DNA from: an uncultured Bacilli bacterium
GTDB taxonomy: Bacteria > Bacillota_I > Bacilli_A > RF39 > UBA660
Reading direction: 5' to 3'
Assembly: GCA_947629235.1 (NCBI GenBank)
Contig: CANRCX010000010.1
Coordinates: 1-50,830 of the forward strand
DNA: 50,830 nucleotides
The first letter of the stretch is position 1; every line of letters begins with the position of its first letter. Both the position numbers and the translations under genes were made by a program. Shown here one piece after another: positions 12,027 to 35,947 of this stretch. The notes under the pieces were generated by a model. The model was not told where the DNA came from. It did not search any database and worked only from the letters and a program-made list of their open reading frames with translations.

Positions 12027-15000
12027 ATGAAACAGAAATTATATAAGTATGCTATGAGTAGTATACTTTTTTTAATGTTATTTTTTAGTGTTTTTGATGT
12101 TAAAGCAGAAAAATACACTGGTCAGGCAATCTGGCCAAGTGAACACATTGATAATATTTATATAAAAAAAGAAAGAAAAGATGGTACTGTCAAAAATATC
12201 CAAGCAAGGTTTATGAGGAGAAGTGAAGATAACGAATTTGTATATTGCTTACAACCTTTTGAAGATATTCATAATTCACATACATATAATATTGCTAGAA
12301 GTGACTATGCAACTGTATTAAATATGACTGATGAGCAATGGGAAAAAATAAGTTTACTTGCTTACTATGGATATAACTATAAAGGTCATACTGCACATAA
12401 GTGGTATGCAATTACACAACTTTTAATTTGGAGAGTTGCTGAACCTACTAGTAAATTTTATTTTACTGACTCATTAGGTGGAAGTGTAAATAAAGATTTA
12501 TATAAAACAGAAATAGCAGAGTTAGAAAAATTAGTTAAAGACCATTATGAAGTACCTAATTTTAATCAAGAAACAATTACAATTCCATTAGGACAAACAA
12601 TTACTTTAACTGATGCTAATAAAATATTAAAAAATTTCAAAGTTAAAAGTCAGTCAAATGTTACAGCAACAATAAATAATGATGATAATACTATAAGTAT
12701 TAAAGCAACTTCAATTGGAAAAGGAAGTATTAAACTTGAAAAGAAAGATACAAAATATGATACACCACCAATTGTATATTATGTTGAAGAAAGTCAGGAT
12801 GTATTTAGAGTAGGATCTTATAATCCTTTATCTACAAATCTTAATATAACTATATTAGGTGGTAGAGTAGAAATTACTAAAAAAGACAACACAACAGGAT
12901 TAACAAAGCCACAGGGTATGGCAACTCTTATAGGTGCTGAATATGGTGTATATGACAGTGATACAAATAAATTAATTACCACATTAAAAACAAATAATAA
13001 TGCTTATGCTATAAGTGATTATCTACCTAAACTAGGAAATTTTTATTTAAAAGAAACAAAACCTAGCACAGGTTATAAAATAGATACTAATAAATATAAT
13101 TTTACAATAACAGAAGATAATTTGCTTGTGCATAAAGATGTGTTTGAAGAGGTTATTACTAGAAATTTTGAATTTACAAAAGTAAAAGCGACTGATAAAA
13201 CACAAATTATGACACCAGAACCTAATGTCAAATTTGCAATATATGATCATAATAATAATTTAGTTACAACTGAAACTACTGATGCAGAAGGTAAAATATA
13301 TCTTGAATTACCTTATGATGAATATACATTAAGACAACTAACTTCTACAACAGGATTTGAAAAAATAGAAGATTATAAGTTTGAAGTTAAAAGTGAGGGT
13401 GCAACTATTAATAAAGTATTTTCAAATGCAGAAATTACTTCTAGAATAAAAGTTATAAAAACTGATGAAAATGGAAATGTGATAACAAAGTCAAATATTA
13501 GATTTAAAATCAAAGATTTATCAACTAATAATTATGTATGTCAAACAGTTGCATATCCAACACATACAACATATTGTGAATTTGCAACAAATGAATCTGG
13601 TGTATTAATTACACCTTATCCATTGAATTCAGGAGATTATCAACTAGAAGAAGTAGATCAAGTTATTGATGGATATTTGTGGAATTCTAAACCTTTAAGT
13701 TTTTCAATCAATGAAAAATCAAATATTATTAAAGATAAAGATTTTGATGCAATTATTGAATTAAAATTTAAAAATACAGAAGTAAAAGGAAAAATTGTAC
13801 TTGAAAAAAGTGGTGAAGTTCCTGAATTAACTAAAAATGGATATGAATTTTTAAAAAAGCCATTAAAAGGAATCAAATTTGGATTATATGCTCTTGAAGA
13901 TATTGTTATAAATAATAAAGTTATTTATAAAAAAGATACTTTAATTGCAACTAAATTAACAGATGATGCAGGAAAAATAACATTTGATAATTTACATTTA
14001 GGTAAGTATTATGTTAAAGAATTAGAAACATTAAAAGATTATGTTTTAGATACAAATATTTATAATATTGAACTTAAATATAAAGATCAATATACACCAA
14101 TAATTTCTTATACAAAATCAATACTAAATATAATAAAGAAAGGTGAACTAGAATTCACAAAATTAGATATATCAACTGATGAGCCACTACCAAATACACT
14201 AATTGAAATTTATACTATAAACGATGAACTTGTTTTTAGTGGTGTTACAGATGAAAATGGAAAAATAGTGATAAAAAATCTCCCACTAGGTAAATACTAT
14301 ATTTTAGAAAAAGAAGCACCAGAAGGGTACAAGTTAAACACTGAAAAAATGCTATTTGAAATTAAAGGAAATGAAGAAATCGTTAAGTCAACAATGAAAG
14401 ATGAAATCATTAAAGGTACATTAGAATTCACAAAATTAGATATATCAACTGATGAGCCACTACCAAACACAAAAGTGGAAATTTATAATGAGAAAGATGA
14501 ATTGATTTTTAGTGGTATTACAGATATAAATGGAAAAATAGTAGTAGAAAATTTAAAGTATGGCAAATACTATATAATTGAAACAGAGTCTGCAACAGGT
14601 TATGTAATAACTACTGAAAAAGTATATTTTGAAATCAAAAACGATGGGGAAATAGTTAAAGCACAAATGACAAATAAGCCAATTATTGGATCATTAGAAT
14701 TTACAAAAACAGATTTAGTGGATGGCACACCAATACCAAATACAAAAGTGGAAATTTATAATGAGAAAGATGAATTGATTTTTAGTGGTGTTACAGATGA
14801 AAATGGAAAAATAGTAGTAGAAAATTTAAAGTATGGCAAATACTATATAATTGAAACAGAACCTGCAACAGGTTATAAAATAACTACTGAAAAAGTATAT
14901 TTTGAAATTAAAGAAGACAACCAAATAGTGAAAGCACAAATGTCAAATGAAAAAATAATAAAAATTCCTAAAACTTTAAAAAATGATTATAGTTTTATAA

Positions 15001-15716
15001 TTGTTATAAGTTTAATCTTAATTGGAATTATATTAATAATATTAAGTTTCTTTTTAAAGAGAAAACAAAATAAAAAACTTAATTATATATTATTTGGTAT
15101 TGGAACATTTTTAATTATATTATCTTCATCAATAACCTTATATAAATATATTACTTATAAAGAAGAAAATATATTAGAGAAAGAAAATATAGAAAACTAT
15201 TTTCATTTAGAAGATTTTGAAGATAATGAAGAAAAAAGCAATGAAGAAGAATCAACACCAGAGAATAATAATGTAGTTGCAAAATCAGTAAAAAAAAATA
15301 ATAATTCTGTAAATTATATGGCAGTTATAGAAATTCCAAAAATAAATTTAAAAAAAGGAATATATAGTAAAAATAGTTCTTTAAATAATGTAAATAAAAA
15401 TATATATGTTGTAAAAGAAAGTGTATTCCCAAATGAAGAAAAAAATAGTCATATAATTTTAGCAAGTCATTCAGGAAATAGTAAAGTTTCATATTTTAGA
15501 AAATTAAATAAATTAACACTTAATGATGAAGTATATTTATATTATAAAAATATAAAATATGTATATAAAGTTTCTAATAGATATGAAATCAAAAAGACAG
15601 GAAAAGCAGAGTTAAAATTCACAAATGGAAATGATATTACTTTAATAACTTGTTTAACAGGTAAAAATAAACAAGTAGTTTATGTAGCAAAATTAATCTC
15701 TCAACAAGAATATTAA
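12027..15716 (+). CDS. Thioester adhesin with SpaA-like repeats fused to a sortase domain (1229 aa)
   Basis: Residues 1-27 are a signal peptide (ends VKA). A thioester domain follows: Cys74 in FVYCLQPF and Gln131 in AITQLLIW are the pair that forms the internal thioester in Gram-positive adhesins. Next are several prealbumin-like (SpaA/Cna-B) domains, the last three being 91-residue repeats (706-978), each with an FTKxD start and a YYI.E.E...GY end. IPKTLKND (980-987), a hydrophobic helix and KRKQNKK resemble a cell-wall sorting signal with Leu for Gly. A second helix (about 1018-1040) and an acidic linker lead to a sortase fold with His1148 (ASHSGN) and Cys1209 (TLITC). The usual Arg before the last strand reads as Lys/Gln (KNKQVVYVAK). 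GGAGG is 14 nt from the ATG, longer than normal. Confidence 0.85.
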   Translation: MKQKLYKYAMSSILFLMLFFSVFDVKAEKYTGQAIWPSEHIDNIYIKKERKDGTVKNIQARFMRRSEDNEFVYCLQPFEDIHNSHTYNIARSDYATVLNMTDEQWEKISLLAYYGYNYKGHTAHKWYAITQLLIWRVAEPTSKFYFTDSLGGSVNKDLYKTEIAELEKLVKDHYEVPNFNQETITIPLGQTITLTDANKILKNFKVKSQSNVTATINNDDNTISIKATSIGKGSIKLEKKDTKYDTPPIVYYVEESQDVFRVGSYNPLSTNLNITILGGRVEITKKDNTTGLTKPQGMATLIGAEYGVYDSDTNKLITTLKTNNNAYAISDYLPKLGNFYLKETKPSTGYKIDTNKYNFTITEDNLLVHKDVFEEVITRNFEFTKVKATDKTQIMTPEPNVKFAIYDHNNNLVTTETTDAEGKIYLELPYDEYTLRQLTSTTGFEKIEDYKFEVKSEGATINKVFSNAEITSRIKVIKTDENGNVITKSNIRFKIKDLSTNNYVCQTVAYPTHTTYCEFATNESGVLITPYPLNSGDYQLEEVDQVIDGYLWNSKPLSFSINEKSNIIKDKDFDAIIELKFKNTEVKGKIVLEKSGEVPELTKNGYEFLKKPLKGIKFGLYALEDIVINNKVIYKKDTLIATKLTDDAGKITFDNLHLGKYYVKELETLKDYVLDTNIYNIELKYKDQYTPIISYTKSILNIIKKGELEFTKLDISTDEPLPNTLIEIYTINDELVFSGVTDENGKIVIKNLPLGKYYILEKEAPEGYKLNTEKMLFEIKGNEEIVKSTMKDEIIKGTLEFTKLDISTDEPLPNTKVEIYNEKDELIFSGITDINGKIVVENLKYGKYYIIETESATGYVITTEKVYFEIKNDGEIVKAQMTNKPIIGSLEFTKTDLVDGTPIPNTKVEIYNEKDELIFSGVTDENGKIVVENLKYGKYYIIETEPATGYKITTEKVYFEIKEDNQIVKAQMSNEKIIKIPKTLKNDYSFIIVISLILIGIILIILSFFLKRKQNKKLNYILFGIGTFLIILSSSITLYKYITYKEENILEKENIENYFHLEDFEDNEEKSNEEESTPENNNVVAKSVKKNNNSVNYMAVIEIPKINLKKGIYSKNSSLNNVNKNIYVVKESVFPNEEKNSHIILASHSGNSKVSYFRKLNKLTLNDEVYLYYKNIKYVYKVSNRYEIKKTGKAELKFTNGNDITLITCLTGKNKQVVYVAKLISQQEY
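14142..14960 (+). repeat. Three tandem 273-bp repeats in the adhesin gene
   Basis: Units 14142-14414, 14415-14687 and 14688-14960 are each exactly 273 bp (91 codons). Units 2 and 3 are nearly identical over about 120 bp (around 14470-14590 and 14743-14863), which indicates recent duplication or gene conversion. Copy number may vary by recombination or slippage. Confidence 0.85.
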
Positions 15717-15728
15717 TAGGAGGCAGTT

Positions 15729-16112
15729 ATGGAAAAGGTTGCAATATATGCTAGTTATAAAAATGATAATAGAGATTATATAGAGTTCTTATTAAATCAA
15801 ATTAAAGATTGGTGCTATTCAAAAAATTACGATTATACTATTTATTTAGATAAAAGAGAAAAAAACTTAAATAATAGAAGTGAATTTAAAAAATTAAAGA
15901 AAGATATAGAAAATCATAAATATTCTAAAATTATAATAAAAGATATTAGACATATAACAAGAAATTTACATTATAGTATGGATTTTTTAGATTTTCTAGA
16001 AAGAAACAATTGTAAGATAGAAAGTCTTAATGGAGAAGATTTAAATACTCATCTAAAAATATATAAACAAATAATTAACAATGTAAAAAATAAGGAGGAA
16101 TTAGAAAGATGA
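15729..16112 (+). CDS. Resolvase-fold protein without catalytic residues (127 aa)
   Basis: The whole protein matches the N-terminal domain of serine recombinases in order: VAIYASYKN at the site of YARVS, D41 after a beta strand, RSEFKKLKKDI, then IIIKDIRHITRN and a final strand ending ESLNGE. At aligned positions the first Arg is Ser9, the nucleophile Ser is Lys11 and one later Arg is His75; Arg78 remains. There is no DNA-binding C-terminal domain. It therefore cannot recombine DNA and has probably been co-opted as a structural or regulatory transfer protein. AGGAGG precedes the ATG, and the gene overlaps the next by 4 nt at the head of the transfer operon. Confidence 0.7.
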   Translation: MEKVAIYASYKNDNRDYIEFLLNQIKDWCYSKNYDYTIYLDKREKNLNNRSEFKKLKKDIENHKYSKIIIKDIRHITRNLHYSMDFLDFLERNNCKIESLNGEDLNTHLKIYKQIINNVKNKEELER

Positions 16113-16501
16113 ATAATGAAAAAATAAATGAAAAAAACAAATTTGAATTAGAGGGAAATGTTGCTAATATTAGTGACATTTTAATTAATAAAAATGGAAA
16201 AGTAACATTAAAATTTGATTTAGGACAAAATAATGGAGAAAATACACAATTTATTCCTATTGCTTTAAAGGGTGGATTAGTTAAAAGTTATGGAAATCAA
16301 ATAAAAAAAGGAGATTGGATTTTAGTTAAAGGCAAAATAAATTCTTATTTAAAAGATGTAGAAAGAGATGGAAAACTATTCAAAGACAAAGTAATAGAAA
16401 TTCTAGGTTTTGAAGTAACTGATAAAGTAGCCCATAAAGTTTATACAAGTGATGGACAAATCAAAGATTTAGATGTTAATAAAGAAGAAAAGGAAAGATA
16501 A
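16109..16501 (+). CDS. OB-fold single-stranded-DNA-binding-like protein (130 aa)
   Basis: FELEGNVANISDILINKNGK, then KVTLKFDL..., a central strand and GDWILVKGKINSYLKD followed by IEILGFEV give the strand order of an SSB/OB fold. The acidic tail typical of housekeeping SSB is missing; the end is Lys/Glu-rich. It is one of three OB-fold genes in element 1 (with 35950 and 38227) and may coat the transferred strand. GGAGG lies before the ATG inside the upstream gene, giving coupling. Confidence 0.7.
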   Translation: MNNEKINEKNKFELEGNVANISDILINKNGKVTLKFDLGQNNGENTQFIPIALKGGLVKSYGNQIKKGDWILVKGKINSYLKDVERDGKLFKDKVIEILGFEVTDKVAHKVYTSDGQIKDLDVNKEEKER

Positions 16502-16507
16502 AATTTA

Positions 16508-17002
16508 ATGTATAATTATGAAATAATAAATTTTTGGAATGACCAAGATGATTTATATGTTCAGTATATAGTTGAAGATACAACAACAAATGAAAAAGTA
16601 AATACAATAGGTTATTACAACACAGCAGATATAGAGTGTGATTATAATATGTCTTCTTATGAAACAATACAAAAACATTTATTAGATATTTTAGAAAAAA
16701 ATAATGGTGTAGAATTTAATATTCCAAAAGTTAGTGAATTGAGTTCATTATTAAAATATGTTTATGATTCTATTTGTGAAAGTGAATCAAATATGTTCTA
16801 TGTTGATTATGACGAATGGGAAGAATTAAAAGATAGTGATGAATTTACAGAAGAAGATTTTAATATTTTAAAGAAAGAAATAAAAAAATATAATCTTGAA
16901 GATGTAATAAGTATTGATGATAAAGAATACAAAATATGTGCTTATGGTATGTTGCAAACATTATTTAATGATGATAGAGAAAAAGATAATTTTATAAGAT
17001 AA
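16508..17002 (+). CDS. Hypothetical acidic protein of the transfer operon (164 aa)
   Basis: No family is recognised. It is strongly acidic (runs such as DYDEWEELKDSDEFTEEDF) and soluble, with a strand-rich N-terminus and a helical C-terminal half. It starts 6 nt after the OB-fold gene, without a strong ribosome site, so it may rely on coupling. Small acidic proteins in such operons sometimes act as DNA mimics against host defence; that is only a possibility here. Confidence 0.5.
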   Translation: MYNYEIINFWNDQDDLYVQYIVEDTTTNEKVNTIGYYNTADIECDYNMSSYETIQKHLLDILEKNNGVEFNIPKVSELSSLLKYVYDSICESESNMFYVDYDEWEELKDSDEFTEEDFNILKKEIKKYNLEDVISIDDKEYKICAYGMLQTLFNDDREKDNFIR

Positions 17003-19010: not shown

Positions 19011-21524
19011 ATGAAACAAAAACTTAAACAAGAAGAAAAACGAAAAAATAAAGAAACAAAAATAATAAAAAAATTTATTACTAAAAAGGAAAAACAAAAA
19101 TATATAACAAAACAAGATTTAAAGCATAAATTTAAAAATTCACAAATATTTGTAAATGTAGATAAAGTATTAGATAATGGTATTATAAAATTAAAAGATA
19201 ATAGTTTTGCAAAAATATATTCAGTAGGAGCAATAGATTTATCTTTAACATCAAATTTTCAAAAACAATCATTTTTTCAACAATTAAAATTTTTATATCA
19301 AATAAATAATTTAAATTTAAGAATATATAAATTAGATGATAAAATTGATTTAAGTGAAAATAAAGATTATTATAATGAGTTAATAAATAAGTACATAAAT
19401 GATAAAGAGAAAAAAGAATTTTTAGAAGAAAGAATGTATAGATTAGAACAATTAGAACAAGAGAATTTAGCAATATCAAGTAGGTACTATTTTGTAGTAA
19501 TTGAAGATGATGAAATAGCACTTGAAAAAGTATCAAATGATATTGAAACAATATGTTCAAATTTAAATCCAAGACTAGATATAGAGAATATACAAAATAA
19601 ATTGGAAATATACCAATTTTTAATTAATCTTTATGGTACAAATGTAAATTTAGAACAATTAATGTGGAGTAATTTAACAGAGTTAATTACTCCATATTTT
19701 ATAAATGAAAATATTAATTATCTAAAATTAGATGAAGAAGAGGCACAAGTTATAACTATAAAAAATATACCACCATTTGTAGATGAATTGTTTTTTGAAC
19801 AATTATTTAATTCTCCAAATATAAAATCTTGCATACATATTAAAGATACAATAACAACAGAAGAATTAATAAAAAGATTAGATAGTAATTATGAATTCTT
19901 AATTTCTGAAAGAAATACAACTAGAAAATTGAGTGATGCTACTGAAATGGACTTAATAAAAGAAAATATGCAAATTTTAATGAATGATATAAAAAATGGA
20001 GATGAAGTAATTAAAGAAGTAGATTTTATTGTTATTATTACAGGAAACAAAAAAGAAAGAGAAGAAAAGTTTAGAGAATTAAAAAAATTAGCCAATAGTT
20101 TTAAAATAAAATTAGATATACCAAGAATGAGACAATTAGAGGGATATAAAGCATTTGATATTTCAAAAAATAGTTTTGAAGATTATCATAATTATTTACC
20201 AAGTTTGACATTGGCATCGTCATTCCCATTAACGATAACAAATTTTAATGATAGAACAGGTTATATTTGGGGAATAGATACTCATACATTATTACCAATA
20301 ATTTTTGATTTATTTTATAAAGACTCATCAAGACCATCAAGTAATTTAGCAATTATTTCATCAACAGGTGGTGGAAAAAGTTTTGCATTAAAAAAACTTA
20401 TTGTTAATGAAATAAATAGGGGAAATAAATGTTTTATATTTGATGCAGAGGGTGAGTATGAAAATTTAGTTAAATCTAATAATGGACAATATATAGATTT
20501 ATATTCATCAAGTGGTGGAGTTATAAACCCACTTCAAGTAAGATTTTTAGCAAGTGATAAAGAAATACAAGATGAAAATAAAACGCTTAATTATGAATTT
20601 AATTATGAAGATTGTCCACTTGCAAAACATTTAGGATCACTTGAAACATTTATAAAATGTGCATTTGAAGAAATAAAAGAAAGTGAAGTAGTTGTTATGC
20701 TAGATATGATAGAAAATTTGTATAAAAGATTTGGTATAACAAAGAATACAAAAATATCATATTTAGAAAAATTAGAAAATACTGATTATCCAATATTTAA
20801 AGATTTAATTGAATTTATACCAGATTATAGAAATATGGTAACAAATCAAGAACAACTTAAAATTATTGATAAATTAGAAATACTTTTAGATAGATTTAAT
20901 GTAGGTATAGACTCAATTTTATTTAATGGTTATACGACAGTAAATCTTGATTCTGATTTAATAGCATTCAATGTTAAAGATTTATTGTATAGCAAAAATA
21001 CAAGACTAATAACAACTCAATTAGTAAATCTATTAACTTATTTAAATAATATAATTGTAAAGAATAAAATGATAAATGATAAATCAAAAGAAGAAAAATG
21101 TATGGCAATAATAGTAGATGAATTCCATTTGTATTTAAAGATAAATAATGAAGTAATTTTATCATTTGAGCAATTGGCTCGTAGAATTAGAAAATACAAT
21201 GGAGCATTTATACCTGCAACACAAAGTATTCACGATTTTTTAGGAGATGATGAGTCTGTTAGAAGTGCTACTGCTATATTTAATAATTCACAATATTTAC
21301 TTGTTGGTATGCTAAAAGAAGATGACTTAACTACATATATAAAATTATTTAATCAAAATCCATTAACAGATACACAAAAAGAATTTTTAATAAAAGCAGA
21401 GCAAGGAAATTTTTTACTATCAATAAATTCAAAGAATAGATTAAAAATAAAAATCATAGCAACACCAAAAGAGTTAGAAATTATGCAAGAGGTTAAGAAT
21501 TATGAAAAAAATAAAAACAAGTGA
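19011..21524 (+). CDS. virB4: VirB4 (TraE/TraC-like) conjugation ATPase (837 aa)
   Basis: An ATPase that powers pilus/channel assembly and DNA export. The basic N-terminal 60 residues are followed by the VirB4 N-domain. The AAA core has Walker A STGGGKS (451-457), Walker B IIVDEFH (Asp703-Glu704), and the PATQSIHDFL segment conserved in TraG/VirB4 ATPases. Length is normal for the family. The gene is in the expected place between VirB3-like and peptidase genes and overlaps the small downstream gene. Confidence 0.92.
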   Translation: MKQKLKQEEKRKNKETKIIKKFITKKEKQKYITKQDLKHKFKNSQIFVNVDKVLDNGIIKLKDNSFAKIYSVGAIDLSLTSNFQKQSFFQQLKFLYQINNLNLRIYKLDDKIDLSENKDYYNELINKYINDKEKKEFLEERMYRLEQLEQENLAISSRYYFVVIEDDEIALEKVSNDIETICSNLNPRLDIENIQNKLEIYQFLINLYGTNVNLEQLMWSNLTELITPYFINENINYLKLDEEEAQVITIKNIPPFVDELFFEQLFNSPNIKSCIHIKDTITTEELIKRLDSNYEFLISERNTTRKLSDATEMDLIKENMQILMNDIKNGDEVIKEVDFIVIITGNKKEREEKFRELKKLANSFKIKLDIPRMRQLEGYKAFDISKNSFEDYHNYLPSLTLASSFPLTITNFNDRTGYIWGIDTHTLLPIIFDLFYKDSSRPSSNLAIISSTGGGKSFALKKLIVNEINRGNKCFIFDAEGEYENLVKSNNGQYIDLYSSSGGVINPLQVRFLASDKEIQDENKTLNYEFNYEDCPLAKHLGSLETFIKCAFEEIKESEVVVMLDMIENLYKRFGITKNTKISYLEKLENTDYPIFKDLIEFIPDYRNMVTNQEQLKIIDKLEILLDRFNVGIDSILFNGYTTVNLDSDLIAFNVKDLLYSKNTRLITTQLVNLLTYLNNIIVKNKMINDKSKEEKCMAIIVDEFHLYLKINNEVILSFEQLARRIRKYNGAFIPATQSIHDFLGDDESVRSATAIFNNSQYLLVGMLKEDDLTTYIKLFNQNPLTDTQKEFLIKAEQGNFLLSINSKNRLKIKIIATPKELEIMQEVKNYEKNKNK

Positions 21525-21684
21525 TTTAAGAAAAAAATTCAAAAAAATGTATATTGAAGAATTTGAAGATAGTAATGAATCGTTTATGGATTTTATGTTA
21601 GATCTTATTCCAAGAAGAGAATTAATGAATGTTCTAAAAAAAGGAAAGAAACATTATTATATTATAAGTTCAAAATATAGATAA
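21502..21684 (+). CDS. Small basic protein between VirB4 and the peptidase (60 aa)
   Basis: No family is recognised. It is Lys-rich with KKIKTSDLRKKFKKMYIEEF at the start and KKGKKHYYIISSKYR at the end. GAGGTTAAG lies before the ATG inside virB4 (23-nt overlap), and its stop overlaps the peptidase ATG. Tight overlap on both sides supports it as a real, coupled gene. Confidence 0.6.
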   Translation: MKKIKTSDLRKKFKKMYIEEFEDSNESFMDFMLDLIPRRELMNVLKKGKKHYYIISSKYR

Positions 21685-22538
21685 TGAAAAAAATAATTAT
21701 TGCTATATGTGGTAGTTCAATTTTTTTAATATCATTTATATTAATTATAATAATTAGTAGTTTTATGATATTAAATCTTTTTGGAGTAAAACTAACAAAA
21801 GAAAAAATATTAGATAATGCAGAATATGCAACTGCTTATCAAAATGCTTTAAATAAATATTTAAAAGATGGTTATGTTCCACTTCAAAGATTATTATATT
21901 TTTATTTAGAAGATGATAGTTATTCTCTTGAAACATTATATTTAATGAATCAAGATTCAATAAATAAAACAGCAAAAGATATTTATGAAGTATGTGAAGA
22001 TGAAAGAGTAAAAAATATGAGTGCTTGTAACAAAAATAATTTAAAAGAAAATGAAGAATACCTTGTTGTTAGTACAGGACTTTTTAACTTCCCATTAGAA
22101 AGTTTTAATCATTCAGTTACAAGTTTTTTTCATAAACAAAGAGTTGTGTATGGGAAAAGTAATATACACGGAGGTTGGGATTTTAGTGCATCTGCAAAAA
22201 CAAAAGTATATTCAGTTTGTGATGGAGTAGTAACAAAAGTTAATTTTACACAAAATGAAAATATACCATATGATAAAAGTGGTAATAGTGTTGGAAACTC
22301 TATAACTATAAAATGTGATAAAGATTATGAAGATATTTATTATGTAATATTTCATCATCTATATCCACAGAGTTCAAAAGTAAAGGTAGGACAAAGAGTT
22401 AGTCATTGGACAGAAATAGCAGGAGTAGGAACAACAGGACATTCAACAGGAAATCATTTACATTATGAAGTACATAATTCCAATGGAGATAAAATTGATG
22501 GTTTACATTTAATAAATTTTAATTTAACAAAATCATAG
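21684..22538 (+). CDS. Membrane-anchored M23 (LytM) peptidoglycan peptidase (284 aa)
   Basis: An N-terminal transmembrane anchor (about 4-33) leads to an outside domain ending in a complete LytM fold. Zinc ligands are visible as His162 and Asp166 (HGGWD) and His260 with His258 (HLHYEV). It would open the peptidoglycan for the conjugation channel, the job of VirB1/CwlT-type enzymes. No transglycosylase domain is fused, unlike Tn916-type CwlT. It is the last gene of the VirB block. Confidence 0.9.
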   Translation: MKKIIIAICGSSIFLISFILIIIISSFMILNLFGVKLTKEKILDNAEYATAYQNALNKYLKDGYVPLQRLLYFYLEDDSYSLETLYLMNQDSINKTAKDIYEVCEDERVKNMSACNKNNLKENEEYLVVSTGLFNFPLESFNHSVTSFFHKQRVVYGKSNIHGGWDFSASAKTKVYSVCDGVVTKVNFTQNENIPYDKSGNSVGNSITIKCDKDYEDIYYVIFHHLYPQSSKVKVGQRVSHWTEIAGVGTTGHSTGNHLHYEVHNSNGDKIDGLHLINFNLTKS

Positions 22539-23482: not shown

Positions 23483-23792
23483 ATTAGAAGAAAATATGTA
23501 TGATAAACTTTATCTTGTATCAAAAGATAATCATACTTCTGTTAATAAAGTAGTTGCTTTAATTATTGAAAAATATATTAATGAACCCAGAGAAATTAAT
23601 TATTTAAAAGAATTAGATAAAAAATTAGAAAGTATAAATTTATATTTAGATAAATTATCAAAAAGACAATATAAACATTTTTTACTTTCACAACAACACT
23701 TTGCTAATTTTGGTTATCTCTCAAATGCTGATATTAATGAAGATAAATGTTTGAAAGAAATTTTAAATAATAAGGATAATTTTAATGAATAA
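23463..23792 (+). CDS. MobC-like ribbon-helix-helix protein (109 aa)
   Basis: The start KKMTIRLEENMYDKLYLVSK, then NHTSVNKVVALIIEKYI, is a clear RHH fold followed by a helical, coiled-coil-like region (ELDKKLESINLYLDKLSKRQ). This is the layout of MobC-type relaxosome proteins that help the relaxase melt oriT. It overlaps its neighbours by 20 and 8 nt. The second in-frame ATG three codons on is an equally possible start. Confidence 0.75.
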   Translation: MKKMTIRLEENMYDKLYLVSKDNHTSVNKVVALIIEKYINEPREINYLKELDKKLESINLYLDKLSKRQYKHFLLSQQHFANFGYLSNADINEDKCLKEILNNKDNFNE

Positions 23793-25140
23793 AAGTCCAA
23801 ATGTAATTTTTAAAAGTAAATATTGTTTGGCTTTGAATAGTAGAGATAATAATATGAATAATTCAATGAATTATCAAAAAAATCGTTTGAATGATATTGA
23901 TAAGATGATTGATTATTTTTCTAATGAGAAGAAAAAAGTAGTTGGTATGTTTGAATATTTTATGGGACATACAAGAAATGAAAACATAAATTTAGTTTTA
24001 GAAAATGGTAATTATGCAACAAAAGAAGATATAAAAAAACTAAAAACAAACTATAAAAAATATATTGAAAATTCTAATTTATGGAAATGTATATTAAGTT
24101 TCAATAGTGAATATTTATATAATAATATTGATATTAAAACTTTTGAGCAAAAATTGGCAAAAGAAATAATACCACAGTTTTTAAAATATTGTGGTTTCAA
24201 AGATATAAAAAATATGAGTTATGTATTTTCTATTCATACAAATAAAACACATCCACATATTCATTTTGCATTTATTGAAAAAAAGCCCAATTATTTATAT
24301 TGTGATAAAAAGGTCAATTACAGAAGAAAAGGAAAAATTACAATAGATGAGCAAAGATATTTAAAAAGATTAGTAGAACTTGTTATTGAAAGAGAAAAAT
24401 ATTATACACCACAATTAAAAAAAACAAATGAAGATATAGATTATTTAAAATCATATTTTAATATAAAAGATAAAAATTTTGTTTTGAAAAATGTTGATGA
24501 AATATTTATAGAAGAAAAAATATTAAAGTTAGGTGAGTTATTAAAAGAATATAGACAAATTAATTCACAAAATTCAAATGGGATAAAATATAATTCAATT
24601 AAAAATGATGATATAGGAAGAAAAATAAAAGTATTAACAAAAGAAATAAAAAAATATTTATTTAATGATGAAAATTCTAGTTTATATTCTATGAAAAAAA
24701 ATATAGATGAAGATATAAAAAAATTAAATAATTATTTTGTTTTATTAAATGAAAATAATAATATTGATGATAATAATTTTAAAAATGCTATTACTGAAAA
24801 TAAAATAAAATATATTGATAACTATATTTATAATTCAATAGTAAATTACTCATTATATAAATATGAAAAAATATCTTTAATAGTTAAGAAAAATACTAAT
24901 AAAGAAGAAATTAGTATAGAAGATTTAATACAAGAAATAGTTTATCTAAATCATAAATATAAAGGAAATAATAGTGATAAGCAAATTAGAAAAGAAGTTT
25001 TAGAAAACTATTTTAAAGGTTCTACTAATGCTACAAAATTCCCTAATAAATATATGTTAGAAAAAGCAATAAAAAATATAAATTATGAAATGGATAGAGC
25101 AACAGAAGAATTTAATAAACTTTTTGATTATGAAAAATAA
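23785..25140 (+). CDS. Relaxase, MobL-like (451 aa)
   Basis: A nicking and strand-transfer enzyme for conjugation. The HUH motif is visible as HTNKTHPHIHFAF, with His151, His158 and His160 as the metal ligands, after LWKCILSFNSEYL, the conserved strand of MobL/MobP-type relaxases. The first 60 residues contain several Tyr (30, 44, 58), one of which should be catalytic. The C-terminal 200 residues are charged and coiled-coil rich. The operon (RHH, HTH, RHH, relaxase) sits beside the oriT candidate. The MobL label rests on motif and length. Confidence 0.82.
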   Translation: MNKSPNVIFKSKYCLALNSRDNNMNNSMNYQKNRLNDIDKMIDYFSNEKKKVVGMFEYFMGHTRNENINLVLENGNYATKEDIKKLKTNYKKYIENSNLWKCILSFNSEYLYNNIDIKTFEQKLAKEIIPQFLKYCGFKDIKNMSYVFSIHTNKTHPHIHFAFIEKKPNYLYCDKKVNYRRKGKITIDEQRYLKRLVELVIEREKYYTPQLKKTNEDIDYLKSYFNIKDKNFVLKNVDEIFIEEKILKLGELLKEYRQINSQNSNGIKYNSIKNDDIGRKIKVLTKEIKKYLFNDENSSLYSMKKNIDEDIKKLNNYFVLLNENNNIDDNNFKNAITENKIKYIDNYIYNSIVNYSLYKYEKISLIVKKNTNKEEISIEDLIQEIVYLNHKYKGNNSDKQIRKEVLENYFKGSTNATKFPNKYMLEKAIKNINYEMDRATEEFNKLFDYEK

Positions 25141-26958: not shown

Positions 26959-27676
26959 TACAGACTCAAATAATGAATATTACTTAAATGTATTAAGATA
27001 TTCTTGTAATAATCGTTTATATATTGGAATAAGTAATCAAGCAGATGATTTAATTAGTGATATAACTATAAATTTACCAGATGTAAAAATTAAAAGTAAT
27101 AATCAAATATTTTTATCAGGAGATGTTTTGGATGAGATTAAATTTAAATTAATTGAAAAAGGTATAATTAGTGAAATTAGTGACACACAAAAATATAATA
27201 TGGGAGAATATCAAATTGCTTATGTAAATTTAGATATATTAAAAGAATATGATAGTTCAGGTGTTGAAGAATTCTTAAATAGTCAAGAAAAAGAAAATGA
27301 TAGTTTATTTGATTTTTATGATGAAGATGAAATAAGAAAATTATTAGATAATAAAGAAAGACTAGTTTATATTGATAATGGAGTAGATGAAGTAGTAGCA
27401 AGATATGAAGATTTACCAGATATTATAGTTGATGTAAATGAAAAATTTAATCATACTGAAAATTTAAAAGTATATGATTTTGATAATCCTATGTTAGATA
27501 ATCCATTACTAACTACAATTGGTTCTTTTTTAGATAAATGTGATTCACAAGTAAGAAATGATATTATTGAAAGATTAACTGAATTGCAAACAGGAAAGCA
27601 AGAAGTAAAATCATATAAATTTATTGATGAAGATATGTTAGATGATATTATAAATGATTTTGAAATGGAAAATTGA
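26942..27676 (+). CDS. ICE accessory protein, possibly DUF4313-like (244 aa)
   Basis: A GTG start 9 nt after GAGGTGA. The N-terminal 110 residues (YIGISNQADDLISDITINLP, then VKIKSNNQIFLSGDVLDEI and YVNLDILKEYDSSGVEEF) resemble a conserved accessory protein of Gram-positive conjugative elements, possibly DUF4313. I recall the pattern but cannot confirm the family. The C-terminal half is very acidic. It lies directly before virD4 with a 3-nt gap at most. Confidence 0.5.
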   Translation: MRKKFDTDSNNEYYLNVLRYSCNNRLYIGISNQADDLISDITINLPDVKIKSNNQIFLSGDVLDEIKFKLIEKGIISEISDTQKYNMGEYQIAYVNLDILKEYDSSGVEEFLNSQEKENDSLFDFYDEDEIRKLLDNKERLVYIDNGVDEVVARYEDLPDIIVDVNEKFNHTENLKVYDFDNPMLDNPLLTTIGSFLDKCDSQVRNDIIERLTELQTGKQEVKSYKFIDEDMLDDIINDFEMEN

Positions 27677-27678
27677 TA

Positions 27679-29640
27679 ATGTTTAAATTATATTTAATTC
27701 TAGGAATTATCATATTATTGATAATTATTTTTTTATATTTAGAGCCAATTATAACAAAACAAAAAATTAAAAATAATAATGAACACGGTAGTGCTAGATT
27801 TTCAACAATGAGAGAAATTAAAAAAAATTTTCATATGGAGAAAATTAAAAATATAAAAGAAAGTGGTTTCCCAATCTGGTATTCAAAAAATAAAAAAAGA
27901 GTATGGTTTGATATGGATACACCACATTGGATATATTTAGGTAGCACAGGTAGTGGAAAGAGTGTTACTGCTGTAATACCACAATGTAGTTTTATTGCAA
28001 CTGCAAATATTAAAAAAAGTGTATTCATAACAGATCCAAAAGGAGAAATATTTTCTACTACAAGTAAAATGTTTGCAGACAAAGGATATAAAGTATTAAC
28101 ATTAGATTTTAGAAATCCAAGTTTATCAAATCATTTAAATGTATTAGAACCTATTATTAGAGAATATGAATTATATATTGAAAATGAAAAATTATCAAAA
28201 ACTGCATCAACAGAAGAAGATAAAATAAACTTTATGAATAAATCAATAGAACATTTAGCAGTATGTAATCAATTAATAAATACTATTTCAAAAATAATAA
28301 TGGAAGATAAAACTGCAAAAGAGGCATTTTGGAATAATAGTGCAAGTGATATGTTATATGGAATTATTGCATTATTTTTAGAAGATTATGCAGATGGAAA
28401 AATAAAAAGAGAACAAATTACATTATCATCAATAAAAAAATTTCAAAATAGTTCAATGAATGATAAAAATTTGAAATCTTTAAAAAATTATTTACAAAGT
28501 AAAAGTTATGGATTAAAAAGTAAAGATAAATTAATTCCTATTATTACTACTAGTGAAAATACACAAAAAAGTATAGCAAGTGTATTTAATGAAAGAATGA
28601 GTTTGTTTGATGATATTAATGTAGAAAATATAACATCAAATTCTGATTTTGATTTTGATATACTTGGTAAAGAGCCAACAGTGTTATATTGTTGTATTCC
28701 AGATGAATCAAAAATATATTATTCATTAGTTTCAATAATTGTTTCTTTAATTTATAAAACATTAGTATTATTATGTAATACACTACCTAATAAAAGATTA
28801 AAGTGTGAATTAGTTTTTTTACTTGATGAATTTGCAAATACACCACCATTAGAAGATATTGAAACTATTGTGTCAGTAGCAAGGTCAAGAGGTATGTATT
28901 TTCAATTCTTCTTACAAAGTTTTGCTCAACTTGATAATTTGTATGGCAAAGAAGTTAGTCAAATAATACAAGACAATTGTGGACTTGCTTATCTTAAAAC
29001 AAATACCCAAGAAACAGCAGAGGCAATTTCTAAAAGATTAGGAAATCAAACAATAGAAACAACATCATTGAATTATTCGTTAAGTTATTCTAATAATAGT
29101 GGAAGTAAAGGTATAAACTTAATAGCAAGAAGTTTGATGACAGCAGATGAAATAAAACAATTACATTTTAAAACAATTATATTCCCAACAATAGGTTATC
29201 CAATATTTAGAGATACAGTTGTATATCAAAAATTTAGTTGTTATAAAGAGGGAGTTATAGAAAGAAAGATAAGACCATTATCAAGATTAACTAATACCTA
29301 TTACACAGTAGAGCAATTAAAATTTAATAAAAATGAAGATAATACTAATCAACTTGATTTAGAAAAGAAATCAAAATTAGAAAAAATTGTAAATGAGATA
29401 GTAAAAATATTTGGTAAAGTAGATTTTAATGTAAATTATACTCAAAATAATAATTCTTTAATTGCTAACATTTATTTAGTACCACCATTATCACTTGTTG
29501 ATATAGCAAATTTAGAAGAGTTGAGTGATAGATTAAATTTTAAATATAATGCAATATCTGATAGAGAAAAAATTAATAAAAAAAATATTAATTCTTTAAT
29601 AGAAATTTACTTAGATGAAGATAGAGAAAAAGAAATATGA
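27679..29640 (+). CDS. virD4: VirD4/TraG-type coupling ATPase (653 aa)
   Basis: This protein couples the relaxosome to the secretion channel. It has a single N-terminal transmembrane helix (about 2-22). Walker A is GSTGSGKS (88-95) and Walker B is FLLDEFAN (Asp383-Glu384), followed by the conserved [20 protein letters not shown] and later GLAYLKTN. The ATG at 27679 overlaps the upstream stop region (TGATAATG); TTG 27673 is a less likely start. Length and motif order are normal. It overlaps nothing downstream, and the giant helicase gene starts 13 nt later. Confidence 0.92.
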
Positions 29641-29653
29641 AAGAAGGTGTAAT

Positions 29654-32600
29654 ATGAACAATCAATTTATGGAAGAATTTATTACATTAAGAAATGAAAC
29701 TCTACAAAATATACAATTAGATATAAATAGTTGGAATAAATTTATTATATATTGGTCAAAAATTTTAGATAAATATAGTATAGATAATGTACTTAATTTA
29801 TTTGGTTATAATTCAAGTGGCAGAATTTTTATGACATTTGATGAGTGGAATAGTGATGATATAGGAAGAAAAATAAAACCCAAAAGTAAAGGAATACCTA
29901 TTTTAAAAGATAATAGTAAGATATATGTTTTTGATATAAGGCAAACTTATGGAAAAGATTATAGTGAATGGAATTATAATCATTTAGTAGATTATTCTAT
30001 TTTAAATTACTATCAAGATAGTATTAAACTTAATAACAATGATAGTAAAAATATAAATGAGAATTTTTATGATATTTTTTATAAAATATCATTAAATCAA
30101 ATAAATAATGATTATCAAAATTTACAAAAAAATGAAGTGGAGTTTATTGCTAAAACAATGACTTCACTTTTTTTATCAAAGTCTAATTTTAATATATATA
30201 ATCTTACAAGTTCTTATGAAATGTTAGAAGAATTTGATAATGATGATATTTTAAAATGTATGGAAATTGCTAATAAAGAAACAGCAATTATTTATAATGA
30301 TTTTGTAAAAAAAGTAAATATTTTACAAAAGGTTCAAGATTATATGCAGTCAAATGTTCTTTCTCAATTTAAGGAAAATAAATTTTTAAATAATCAAGAA
30401 AGACAAGATTTTATTTTAGATTTAAATTTTAATACTCAAATTAATGAAAATGTTTTAGATACAATTTATAGTAGATATGTAGATAAATATGAGCATACTT
30501 TTAAAAGAAAAATTGAAAATAAAGAAGATGAAACAGAACAAATAAAAATAGAAGAAATTGAAAATGATAAAGAAGAAAAAAACTACAATGAACAATTATC
30601 ATTATTTGCACCAAGAGAAGAAGAGTTAGCAAATAAGATTTGTGATATATTTAATTCATTTGATACTAAATATCAAAATACTTTTAAAATAGATAATGTT
30701 GAATTACAAGTATGGGAACATATAGCATCTAAAAAAAGAAATTTAACTATTATTTTAAAAAGTTCTTTGATTAATGAATATGCTGATAGTGAAAATAGTT
30801 TTACTTATTTTAATATTGATAAAACTGATGAAAAGAAATTAAATGATTTAATAAGAAATAATGCTTTTATTCAATCTTTGTATAAAGATAAAGATTTTTC
30901 AATTACATTTACTCCAAATATGATTCACATTATTTGGAATAATTTTGATGAAAAGCAATTTAATATGGATATACCAAATACAAAATTAATAAGTCAAGAA
31001 GAAATTGATAGTCAAGAATTAGAACAAATAGATAACGAAGTGTCTTCTATTGTTAAAGATAATAATATTAGTTATAGAGTTACTACATCAGAGATAATAC
31101 CAACTTATGATGGTATTAAAACTAATGTAATTGAAGAACATAGTTATAATAGTAGTGGAGAAGAAATAGAAGAATACCCAGCAATTAATTATCATATTAA
31201 TGATGATAAAATTGATACAAATTTTGGTGCTAAAACTAGATTTGAAGATAATATAAAAGCAATAAATCTTTTAAAAGATTTAGAAAAAGAAGATAGAAAT
31301 GCAACAAAAGAAGAACAAGATGTTTTATCTCATTATGTAGGTTGGGGAGGAATTGCAGATGCTTTTGATGAAAGAAAAGATAATTGGAAAAGTGAAAGAG
31401 AAAGATTAAGGTCAATTTTAAATGATGAAGAATATAAAGCAGCAGCACATTCCACATTATCTTCTTTTTATACTCCAAATATTGCAATAGATTTAATATA
31501 TAATGCTTTAAAACAATTTGGTTTTAAAAAAGGAAATATTTTAGAGCCAAGTTGTGGCATAGGTAATTTTTTTGGAAGACTACCTAGTGAATTTGATAAA
31601 TCTAAACTTTATGGTGTAGAGTTAGATAGTATTAGTGGTAGAATTGCAAAAAAACTTTATCCTACTGCTAAAATAGAAATAAATGGTTATGAAAATTCAA
31701 AAGTTGCTGATGAATTTTTTGATATTGCAATAGGTAATGTACCTTTTGGTAATAATACTGTATATGATAAAAGATATAAAGATAAGTTTTTAATTCACGA
31801 CTACTTTTTTCAAAAAACATTGGATAAAGTTAGAGATGGTGGAATAATTGCTTTTATAACTACTTCTGGAACATTAGATAAAAAAGATACAAGAGTAAGA
31901 GAATATATAGCAAAGAGAGCAGAGTTTTTAGGAGCAATAAGATTACCAAATAATACTTTCACAGGAAATGCAAATGCAAAAGTAACATCAGATATTATAT
32001 TCTTGAAAAAAAGAGATGAATTAAAATTAGATGTAAGTGATGAAAATTGGATTTATACAAGTGAATATAATGATGGAATAACTATTAATAATTATTATAT
32101 TGATAATCCTTATATGATGCTTGGAAAAATGGAATTACATTCAACTGCTTATGGATATGATAGTACATTAAATCCAATAGATGAAGATATAAATGTTTTA
32201 ATAAACAATGCACTAAAAAAACTACCAAGTAATATTTATGAGCAAATGGAATTTATACAAAATAATGAAAGTGATTATGAGGTATTAGATGCAGATGATA
32301 CTATAAAAAATAATGCTTTTACTATTATAAATAAAGATGGTAAAGATATTATTTATCAAAGGCAATTTTCAAGTTTAGTACCATATTCTATTCAAGATGG
32401 TATGGTTGCAAAAAGAATTATTGGACTATGTAAATTAAAGAAAGCATTAAGAGAAGTATTTGATATACAACTTCGTGATGGTAGTGATGATGAATTGTCA
32501 TTTGCTCAAAAAAAATTAAGTGAAGAATATGATGAATTTTGTAAGAAATATGGTTATATAAATGATAGTGCAAATGCAAGAGTATTTGATGATGATCCAG

Positions 32601-35600
32601 ATTATTATTTGCTTACATCAATTGAAAATAAAATTAGTAAAGATGAAGAAGATGATAAACCTAAATATGAAAAAGGTGATGTTTTTACAAAAAGAACAAT
32701 TAGAAAGAGTATAAAAATTACTAGTGCAGAAAATGCGGAAGAGGCATTAAGATATTCTTTAAATAATCGTGGTTGTGTAGATTTTGAATATATGAAAACA
32801 TTATATCCAAAGAGTGAAGAAGAAATGGTAGAAGAACTTGATAATTTAATATTTCAAGATCCAGAAAAAATAAATGACTTTAATAAAGGATGGGTTATAT
32901 CTAGTGAATATTTAAGTGGCAATGTAAAGTATAAACTTAACTATGCTAAATCAATTAATGAAGATAATAAATATGATAAAAATATTGAAGCACTTGAAAG
33001 AGTGCAACCTGCACCACTTGAATTTGATGAAATTAGTGTAAAATTAGGTTCTACTTGGATACCAGAAGATGTTTATCATAAATTTTGTTGTGAACTACTT
33101 GATATTCCTAATTGGACTAAAAGCAATTTAAAAATAAAATATGTAAAAGAAGGAAATACTTGGCTATTTCAAGCAAGTGGTTTATATGGTTATGGAGTTA
33201 AAAATACAAACACTTGGGGAACTAAACGAGCAGATGCTTTATCATTAATAAAAAATGCTTTAAATCTTCAAAGTGTAACAGTATATGATAGTTTAGAAGA
33301 TGAAAGAAGAGTTGTAAATCCTATTGAAACAGCAAATGCAAGAGAAAAGCAAGAACTCATAAAGCAAGAATTTAAGGATTGGATATGGAAAGATGAAGAA
33401 AGAAGAAACAGATTAGTTAAGATTTATAATGATAATTTTAATTGTATGAGAGAAAGAGAATATGATGGAAGTCATTTAACTTTTGATGGTATGAATCCAA
33501 ACATTGAACTTCGTCCACATCAAAAAAATGCAGTTGCTCGTGTATTATATGGTGGGAATGCTTTACTTGCTCACGCAGTTGGTGCTGGAAAAACTTATGA
33601 ATGTATTGCTAGTGCTATGGAATTAAAAAGACTTGGTATTGTTAATAAGCCAATGTTTGTTGTTCCAAATCATTTATTAGGACAATGGGCAAATGAAATA
33701 TTAAAACTTTATCCTACTGCAAATGTTTTAGTTGCAACACAAAAAGATTTTGAAAAAACAAGAAGAAAAAAACTTATGGCAAAGATAGCAACAGGAGAAT
33801 GGGATGCAGTTTTAATTGCACATTCAAGTTTTGGACTTATTCCAATGAGTAAAAAATACGAAAAAGAACATATGGAAAGACAAATAGAAGAAATTACTAA
33901 TGCTATTGAAAGAGTTAAAGAAGAGTCTAATGAAAGTTTAAGTGTAAAGAGATTAGAGCAATTAAAAACAAGTATGGATACAAAATTAAAATCATTATTA
34001 GATGCACCAAAGGATGATGTAGTAACATTTGAAGAACTTGGAGTTGATGAATTAATTGTAGATGAAGCACATATGTTTAAAAATCTTCCAATGTTTTCTA
34101 AAATAAGAAATGTAGCAGGAATAAATAATACTGAATCTAAAAAAGCAACTGATTTATTTATGAAAATAAGTTATATTCTTGAAAATAATGGAGGTAAGGG
34201 AGTAATATTTGCAACAGGAACACCTATTTCAAATTCAATGGGAGAATTATTTGCAATGCAAAAATATTTACAATTAGATAGGTTGAGAGAAATGGGACTA
34301 GAGCATTTTGATGAGTGGGCTTCAACCTTTGGTGAAATAGTTAATAGTTTTGAAATAGCACCAGATGGTAGTGGTTTTAGAACAAAAGCACGATTTGCTC
34401 AATTCTTTAATATACCAGAGTTAATGACTTTATTTAAAGAGATAGCAGATATAAAAACAACAAAAATGTTAAATTTACCAACACCAAAACTAAAAGGTGG
34501 AGATTATAAAACAATAGTTGCACCTAAAAGTGAAGAATTAGGAGAATATGTTGAGAAACTAGCAGAAAGAAGTGAAATAATTAAAAATGGTTGTGATCCA
34601 AGAGAAGATAATATGCTATTAGTTACAAATGATGGTAGAAAAGCAGCATTAGATTTAAGATTAATAGATCCAAGTATGCCAGATTTACCAAATTCAAAAA
34701 TAAATATTGCAATAGAAAATATTTATAGAATATGGTTAGAAAATAAGGAAGACAAGTTAACACAACTTGTCTTTTGTGATTTATCCACTCCAAAAAATGA
34801 TGGTACTTTTAATGTTTATGATGATATTAAAAATAAATTAATAGCAAGAGGAGTACCAGAAGATGAAATAGAATTTATTCATAATGCTAAAACCAACCCA
34901 CAAAAATTAAAATTATTTGAAGATATGAGAAGTGGTAAAAAGAGGATTTTAATAGGTTCAACATCAAAGATGGGAGCAGGAATGAATGTTCAAGATAAAC
35001 TTATTGCTTTACATCATCTTGATTGTCCTTGGAGACCATCTGATATAGAGCAAAGAGAGGGAAGAATATTAAGACAGGGAAATCAAAATGAAGAGGTTGA
35101 AATTTATAGATATGTAACTGAGGGAAGTTTTGATGCTTATTCATATCAATTAATTCAAACAAAATCAACTTTTATAAATCAAATTATGGCTAATAGTAAT
35201 GGTGGAGGAAGAACAGCAGAAGATTTAGATAGAGATACACTTACTTATGCAGAAGTTAAAGCACTTGCAAGTGGTAATCCATTAATATTAGAAAAATTTA
35301 AAGTGGAAAATGAATTAAAACAATTATATTTATCTAAAAGTAGATATGATAAATCACATATAGAACTTGAATCAAAGTATAATATTGAAATTCCAAGACA
35401 ATTAAAATACCAAAAACAATATTTAAGTAGTCTTGAAGAAGATATAAAAAATGTTAAAGATTTATCAGGAGATAATTTTTCAATTTTAATAAAAGATAAA
35501 ATCTATAATTCAAGAAAAGAAGCAAGTTCTAAATTATATGAAAATTTTTCTATATTAAAAGCAAGTGAGGAAACAAAAATAGGAGAGATAAGTGGATTTG

Positions 35601-35947
35601 ATATTATTGGTACTTGTGAAGAATTAAGATATACTCCTGTAATTTTTATTAAAGGAGCAGGAAAGTATAAAGTGGAAATTAATAATACTGATGAAATAGG
35701 AAATATTTTAAAATTAGAAAATATGTTAAAAAGTTTTGTAAACAAAATTAATACAGTTAAAGAACAAATTGCTTATAATGAAAAGCAATTATTAGACATT
35801 AAAGAAGAACTTGATAAACCTTTCACAGGACAAGATAGAATTAGGGAATTGCAAAAAGAAAAGTTAAGAATAGATGGAGAACTTGATTTAGATAAGCAAG
35901 AAAATACTAGAAATATAGAATCAAATGAAACTGAAATGGAGAGATAG
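29654..35947 (+). CDS. N6-adenine methylase/SNF2-type helicase fusion (2097 aa)
   Basis: An N-terminal ~550-residue region of unknown fold is followed by a Rossmann methylase: motif [11 protein letters not shown] (from 631) and a catalytic-loop variant NVPF (695-698; canonical DPPY/NPPY). A superfamily-2 helicase comes next: Walker A VGAGKT (Lys1313), DEAH (1470-1473), [23 protein letters not shown] and QREGR (1800-1804). The final ~200 residues are coiled coil. This giant is a hallmark of Tn1549-like and related ICEs, where it is thought to protect or process transferred DNA. ATG 29654 follows AGAAGGTG; in-frame codons upstream lie inside virD4. Confidence 0.9.

Follow-up and report, generated by a model that had tools for sequence, protein, structure and literature searches.

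The window, the whole stretch of 50,830 nt that we analyzed, is one entire contig of a 1.43-Mb draft genome (64 contigs, 91.68% complete) from an uncultured Bacilli bacterium. On its forward strand it carries an open reading frame of 1229 amino acids without internal stop, in which a signal peptide, a thioester domain (TED), SpaA-like repeats, a sorting signal, a second membrane helix and a sortase follow one another (Table 1). A Pfam search of this frame found TED (residues 72-150; 31.4 bits against a cut-off of 22), SpaA (seven stretches; 307.6 bits) and Sortase (residues 1101-1223; 56.2 bits against a cut-off of 26.6). Since each domain lies above its curated cut-off and all are in a single frame, the arrangement is far beyond chance. 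Ala27, the last residue of the signal peptide, is kept in 95% of 78 homologues. The marks of a sortase-anchored surface protein, namely IPKTL, a hydrophobic helix and a positive KRK tail, are present; the sorting signal is not C-terminal in the window protein, and the sortase continues in frame behind it. The original prediction, read from the letters of this DNA, had described this order of parts and proposed a domain search and a structural model. The single frame, as it stands in this sequence, and all three domains were borne out, the IPKTL-helix-KRK segment, the second helix, His1148 and Cys1209 lie where it had placed them, and the models returned a class II TED and a sortase fold, as described below.

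Table 1. Features of the adhesin-sortase locus, genes of the surrounding element, and class B fusions found elsewhere. Positions are those of the window unless a locus is named.
Feature	Position	Strand	Basis or remark
Fused adhesin-sortase ORF	12027-15716	+	Uninterrupted frame of 1229 aa
Signal peptide, residues 1-27, probable cleavage behind VKA	12027-12107	+	Read from sequence; cleavage site inferred
Class II thioester domain, residues 29-278	12111-12860	+	Pfam TED, model, 6fx6 match
Thioester Cys74	12246-12248	+	Invariant in 78 homologues
Gln131 (TQXXPhiW motif), which does not form the thioester	12417-12419	+	Literature motif and alignment
Gln257, likely thioester partner	12795-12797	+	Invariant in 78 homologues; class II spacing and motif
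SpaA/CnaB-type repeats (stalk)	12867-14951	+	Pfam SpaA, 7 stretches
Sorting motif IPKTL, residues 980-984	14964-14978	+	Read from sequence and relatives
Putative first transmembrane helix (sorting-signal helix), residues about 989-1010	14991-15056	+	Hydrophobic stretch read from sequence
Positively charged loop KRKQNKK, residues 1011-1017, presumed cytoplasmic	15057-15077	+	Read from sequence
Fusion point, where a T of the split layout is lacking	15058-15059	+	Edit scan
Relic TAA, the adhesin stop in the other frame	15071-15073	+	Edit scan
Second transmembrane helix, residues about 1019-1042; N-terminal anchor of the sortase in relatives	15081-15152	+	Comparison with relatives
Sortase catalytic domain	15309-15704	+	Pfam Sortase, model
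Catalytic His1148	15468-15470	+	Invariant in 37 aligned sortases
Catalytic Cys1209	15651-15653	+	Invariant in 37 aligned sortases
Gln1216, where the catalytic Arg is usual	15672-15674	+	Aligned to the Arg of 4d70
Three small genes (resolvase-like, SSB-like, one of no assigned kind)	15729-17002	+	Same position behind the pair in close relatives
VirB4-like ATPase	19011-21524	+	Conjugation gene
M23 peptidase	21684-22538	+	Conjugation gene
Relaxase	23785-25140	+	Conjugation gene
Coupling protein	27673-29640	+	Conjugation gene
Class B fusions, 1641-1659 aa	L219:5417-10396; L255:1029-5993; L256:1083-6008; L257:1050-5999; L258:1050-5999		

The VirB4-like ATPase, M23 peptidase, relaxase and coupling protein, together with serine recombinases also carried by the window, indicate that it likely holds a conjugative or integrative element, in agreement with the conjugative setting proposed earlier. 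The element also encodes a 2110-aa protein with SNF2/ResIII helicase domains (29615-35947).

For residues 29-278, the AlphaFold model (pLDDT 94.9) matched 6fx6, the TED of SaTIE from S. aureus, with Z 19.3 and rmsd 3.9 over 231 aligned residues; the predicted fold is that of a class II TED with its inserted β-sandwich. The Cys motif [YFL]C-hydrophobic is present as VYCLQ (Cys74) and the TQXXPhiW motif as TQLLIW. Cys74, Gln131 and Gln257 are all invariant among the 78 homologues, and Trp135 is conserved in 99% of them. The thioester had originally been assigned to Cys74 and Gln131, an assignment of which Cys74 stands and Gln131 falls: the Gln of TQXXPhiW does not form the bond, and the partner belongs to a later, weak PhiQzetaPhiPhi motif (PMC6194298). 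Gln257 (SQDVF) fits this motif best, with Ser at the first position as the sole mismatch, and its spacing of 183 residues from Cys74 is typical of class II TEDs. By motif and spacing, Cys74 and Gln257 would be the likely thioester pair.

Homologues of the adhesin were found in 231 of 291 genomes of the same bacterial family, and homologues of the sortase in 209 of 291 genomes of the family and in 225 of 288 genomes of the order; a separate collection supplied 80 further loci. In every one of the 81 distinct readable pairs in which adhesin and sortase adjoin, they are two genes. These split pairs share the domains and the position of the sorting motif with the window, and close relatives share the downstream genes as well, whereas their sortase has an ATG of its own, usually within the lysine-rich 3' end of the adhesin gene. 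The sortase starts in +1 phase to the adhesin in 77 of the pairs, mostly within the adhesin 3' end (overlap mostly 14-38 nt), and an [ILMV]PxT motif (VPNT/VPDT and similar) lies near the adhesin end in 77/81. That the two genes are neighbours in 81 distinct pairs supports the sortase as the dedicated partner of the adhesin. The original prediction took the fusion for an evolved arrangement, and named homologues consistently split at the junction as the result that would speak against it; within the family of the window this is the result we obtained, with all 81 pairs split and the window one nucleotide away from them.

Among the sortase matches listed for the family and the order, frames are about 150-290 aa long, against 1235 aa for the window frame, and no second fused member of the window's family appeared among the matches listed for the 291 family and 288 order genomes. 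Frames of 423 and 424 aa in G068 and G288 seemed fused, but the actual sortases there are 227-228 aa long. A 546-aa frame on another contig (C26) of the same genome as the window (L077:4974-6614) holds a class B-like sortase with an extra, unrelated N-terminal region and is no adhesin fusion; sortase matches within frames of 526-570 aa also occur in the family genomes G057, G044, G020 and G070. Viral contigs gave no match to the whole window protein, and no relative by junction pattern and sortase alignment. The +1 phase of the split pairs (77/81; for example, L011:4250-4284) spans an A-rich stretch, at which slippage could in principle yield some fusion protein in the relatives. In one genome (G080; L075:3441-7386), the adhesin closes with VPNTG and an unusual tail that lacks a helix, and a 180-aa sortase-like frame overlaps it, possibly through another indel at the same place.

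In the window, the sortase frame contains no ATG, GTG or TTG from position 14940, before the sorting signal, to 15318, within the catalytic domain. We enumerated every single-base change. No single substitution or 1-nt deletion led to a split like that of the relatives, and several 1-nt insertions gave a split pair. Among them, a T added between 15058 and 15059 places the ATG at the family-like position and keeps the K-rich tail; the adhesin then ends in LSFFLNEKTK and a stop, the sortase reads MRKQNKKLNYILFG, and the two overlap by 17 nt, as they do at locus L102. The loss of one base would explain why the start is missing as well as why the frames are joined, and the relic stop at 15071 with a near-complete start, one base from the split layout, points to a recent event. 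Judged from the sequence, the window fusion most plausibly arose when one nucleotide of the sortase ATG was recently lost. Our preferred reading, to which we assign a probability of a little under 60%, is that two overlapping genes, one for a class II thioester adhesin and one for the sortase dedicated to it, were joined by this recent deletion, and that the product would be a hairpin precursor cleaved by the sortase of its own or of a neighbouring chain.

The missing base could also be an artefact of the consensus, the true genome having two overlapping genes and one base of the sortase start codon having been missed. That exactly one base separates the window from the layout of the family suits such an error, as do the uniqueness of the fusion among the family and order members listed and its presence in only one assembly, that of a single, incomplete and fragmented draft genome. 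However, the base is not missing from a homopolymer, an error would have had to hit the start codon itself for no ATG to survive, and 77 kb of comparable sequence, set against relatives, showed no further broken frame, in a comparison limited to pairs with at least 50% identity that bounds the error rate loosely. We consider an artefact unlikely, though it deserves to be taken seriously; either a recent mutation or an error probably lies behind the window's case.

A scan for sortases across the phylum revealed one sortase in a frame of 1659 aa (genome G599), in the order signal peptide, TED, SpaA repeats, VPQTG, helix, KKGK loop, helix and sortase. This sortase reaches the class B cut-off TIGR03064. 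Four contigs of a viral collection hold relatives of 1641-1654 aa, each in a single frame and 70-78% identical over the C-terminal 330 aa, two of the four looking nearly identical; the plasmid and phage collections held no record covering at least 80% of the C-terminal part. Because several different sequences occur in different assemblies, an error is unlikely here and the class B fusion is stable. Within the family of G599, the fusion is confined to 1 of 43 genomes, G599 itself. The gene neighbouring the fusion is CD1107-like, and the G599 element carries coupling protein, VirB6-like and M23/NlpC genes. The architecture, which the original prediction proposed to look for in other integrative and conjugative elements, thus recurs in CD1107-type conjugative elements (one genome and four viral-collection contigs). 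The class B fusions arrange their parts along one chain in the same order as the window protein; unlike the window, they have a class B sortase that retains the catalytic Arg, lie on a GC-rich element in another family, and are conserved rather than singular. This independent, conserved family shows that the cis architecture is workable, and it upholds the wider notion that an adhesin and its sortase can naturally share one chain.

A broader reading is that adhesin-sortase fusion is recurrent and selected on conjugative elements, in which case a self-anchoring precursor would have arisen independently in the class B and window lineages and would bring one anchoring enzyme per adhesin into a new host, possibly by cis cleavage or in a retained uncleaved form; we regard this as doubtful. 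Less probable again, at about the level of an outside chance, is that the window fusion itself is older and selected and acts strictly in cis, in which case the sortase domain of the same chain would anchor or hold the adhesin and the protein would have a function of its own when uncleaved. The loss of every sortase start, the intact sortase residues and the conservation of the independent family over several contigs (70-78% identity) would fit such a history, but the relic stop and the near-complete start, one base from the split layout, favour a recent event, and the rest of the window's family is unfused among the matches listed.

The model of the sortase domain (pLDDT 84.9) aligned with 3re9 over 130 residues (Z 16.1, rmsd 2.6). 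Its top structural match is a SrtC, but sortases of classes C, D, E and A all score close together (Z about 14-16). In a profile search, 4d70 (C. perfringens sortase D) ranked first. The best NCBIfam match is class C, with 72.6 bits against a cut-off of 160, and the class D cut-offs are missed (41.2 against 140 and 34.2 against 165 bits). The DPW/DPF-type lid motif of class C sortases is absent, with no Asp-Pro pair in residues 1043-1100. The window sortase is best called C/D-like, without a formal class. Where the catalytic Arg is usual, 33 of the 37 aligned sortases (the window and 32 of 36 relatives) have Gln and the other four have Arg; given this replacement, transpeptidase activity of the window sortase is assumed here. 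A self-polymerizing pilin, in which the sortase would build a pilus from its own adhesin, is very hard to credit. In its favour, the best NCBIfam class is the pilus-building one and a SrtC is the top structural match; against it, the class C score is far under its cut-off, sortases of classes A, D and E score about as well structurally, the linker lacks the lid motif, and no pilin motif came to notice, short of a systematic search. Nothing specific to either self-polymerization or intramolecular capping, both of which had been suggested, emerged.

Sortases and their substrates are usually regarded as separate proteins, and no natural adhesin-sortase fusion was found by title or abstract in the open-access literature; for the class B fusion family, too, we found no description in the open-access literature searched. 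BISOP is reportedly an engineered, self-cleaving fusion in which the sortase cuts the sorting motif in its own chain, and fusions of this type are said to be artificial purification tools, soluble and without a membrane hairpin. They resemble the mode that we propose for the window in cutting the motif within their own chain, and differ in being artificial and soluble.

TIE-pLS20, the product of gene 34 of the Bacillus subtilis plasmid pLS20, is a TED adhesin required for efficient conjugation (PMC8092201). Like the window protein, it has a signal peptide, a class II TED (Cys68/Gln256) and a CnaB-type stalk, and is encoded in a conjugation operon; unlike the window protein, it is unfused, has no LPXTG-like signal, plasmid sortase or reported sortase dependence, and is reported as not sortase-anchored (PMC8092201), which weighs against our reading of the window protein. 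By tblastn, SpaA proteins 28-29% identical were found on B. subtilis plasmids. BaTIE, SaTIE and EfmTIE86 share the class II TED fold and spacing and an isopeptide stalk with the window protein, and BaTIE has an LPXTG-type sorting motif, but their anchoring sortase is a separate protein (PMC6194298).

If the adhesin and its partner sortase were indeed joined by a recent deletion, as we prefer, the most likely mode of the fused protein is that of a membrane-hairpin precursor, which would be cleaved after the motif Thr into a wall-anchored adhesin and a free sortase. The signal peptide would export the chain, and the two helices would insert as a hairpin with KRKQNKK in the cytoplasm, displaying both adhesin and sortase outside. 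Cys1209 would then cut IPKT-L, either in cis, with a reach that a roughly 50-residue flexible tether (low model confidence) may provide, or in a neighbouring molecule. Cleavage would hand the adhesin to the cell wall and leave the two-helix sortase free; the split genes would give the same end products, which the fusion would supply in a constant 1:1 proportion. The wall-anchored adhesin may promote mating contact, as the thioester adhesin of pLS20 does.

Owing to the conserved second family, the question is testable even though the window's own case may be accidental. A natural chain of adhesin and sortase would permit a direct test of own-chain processing across a membrane hairpin, and such a polypeptide would show how mobile elements deliver all parts of an adhesion module to a new host.
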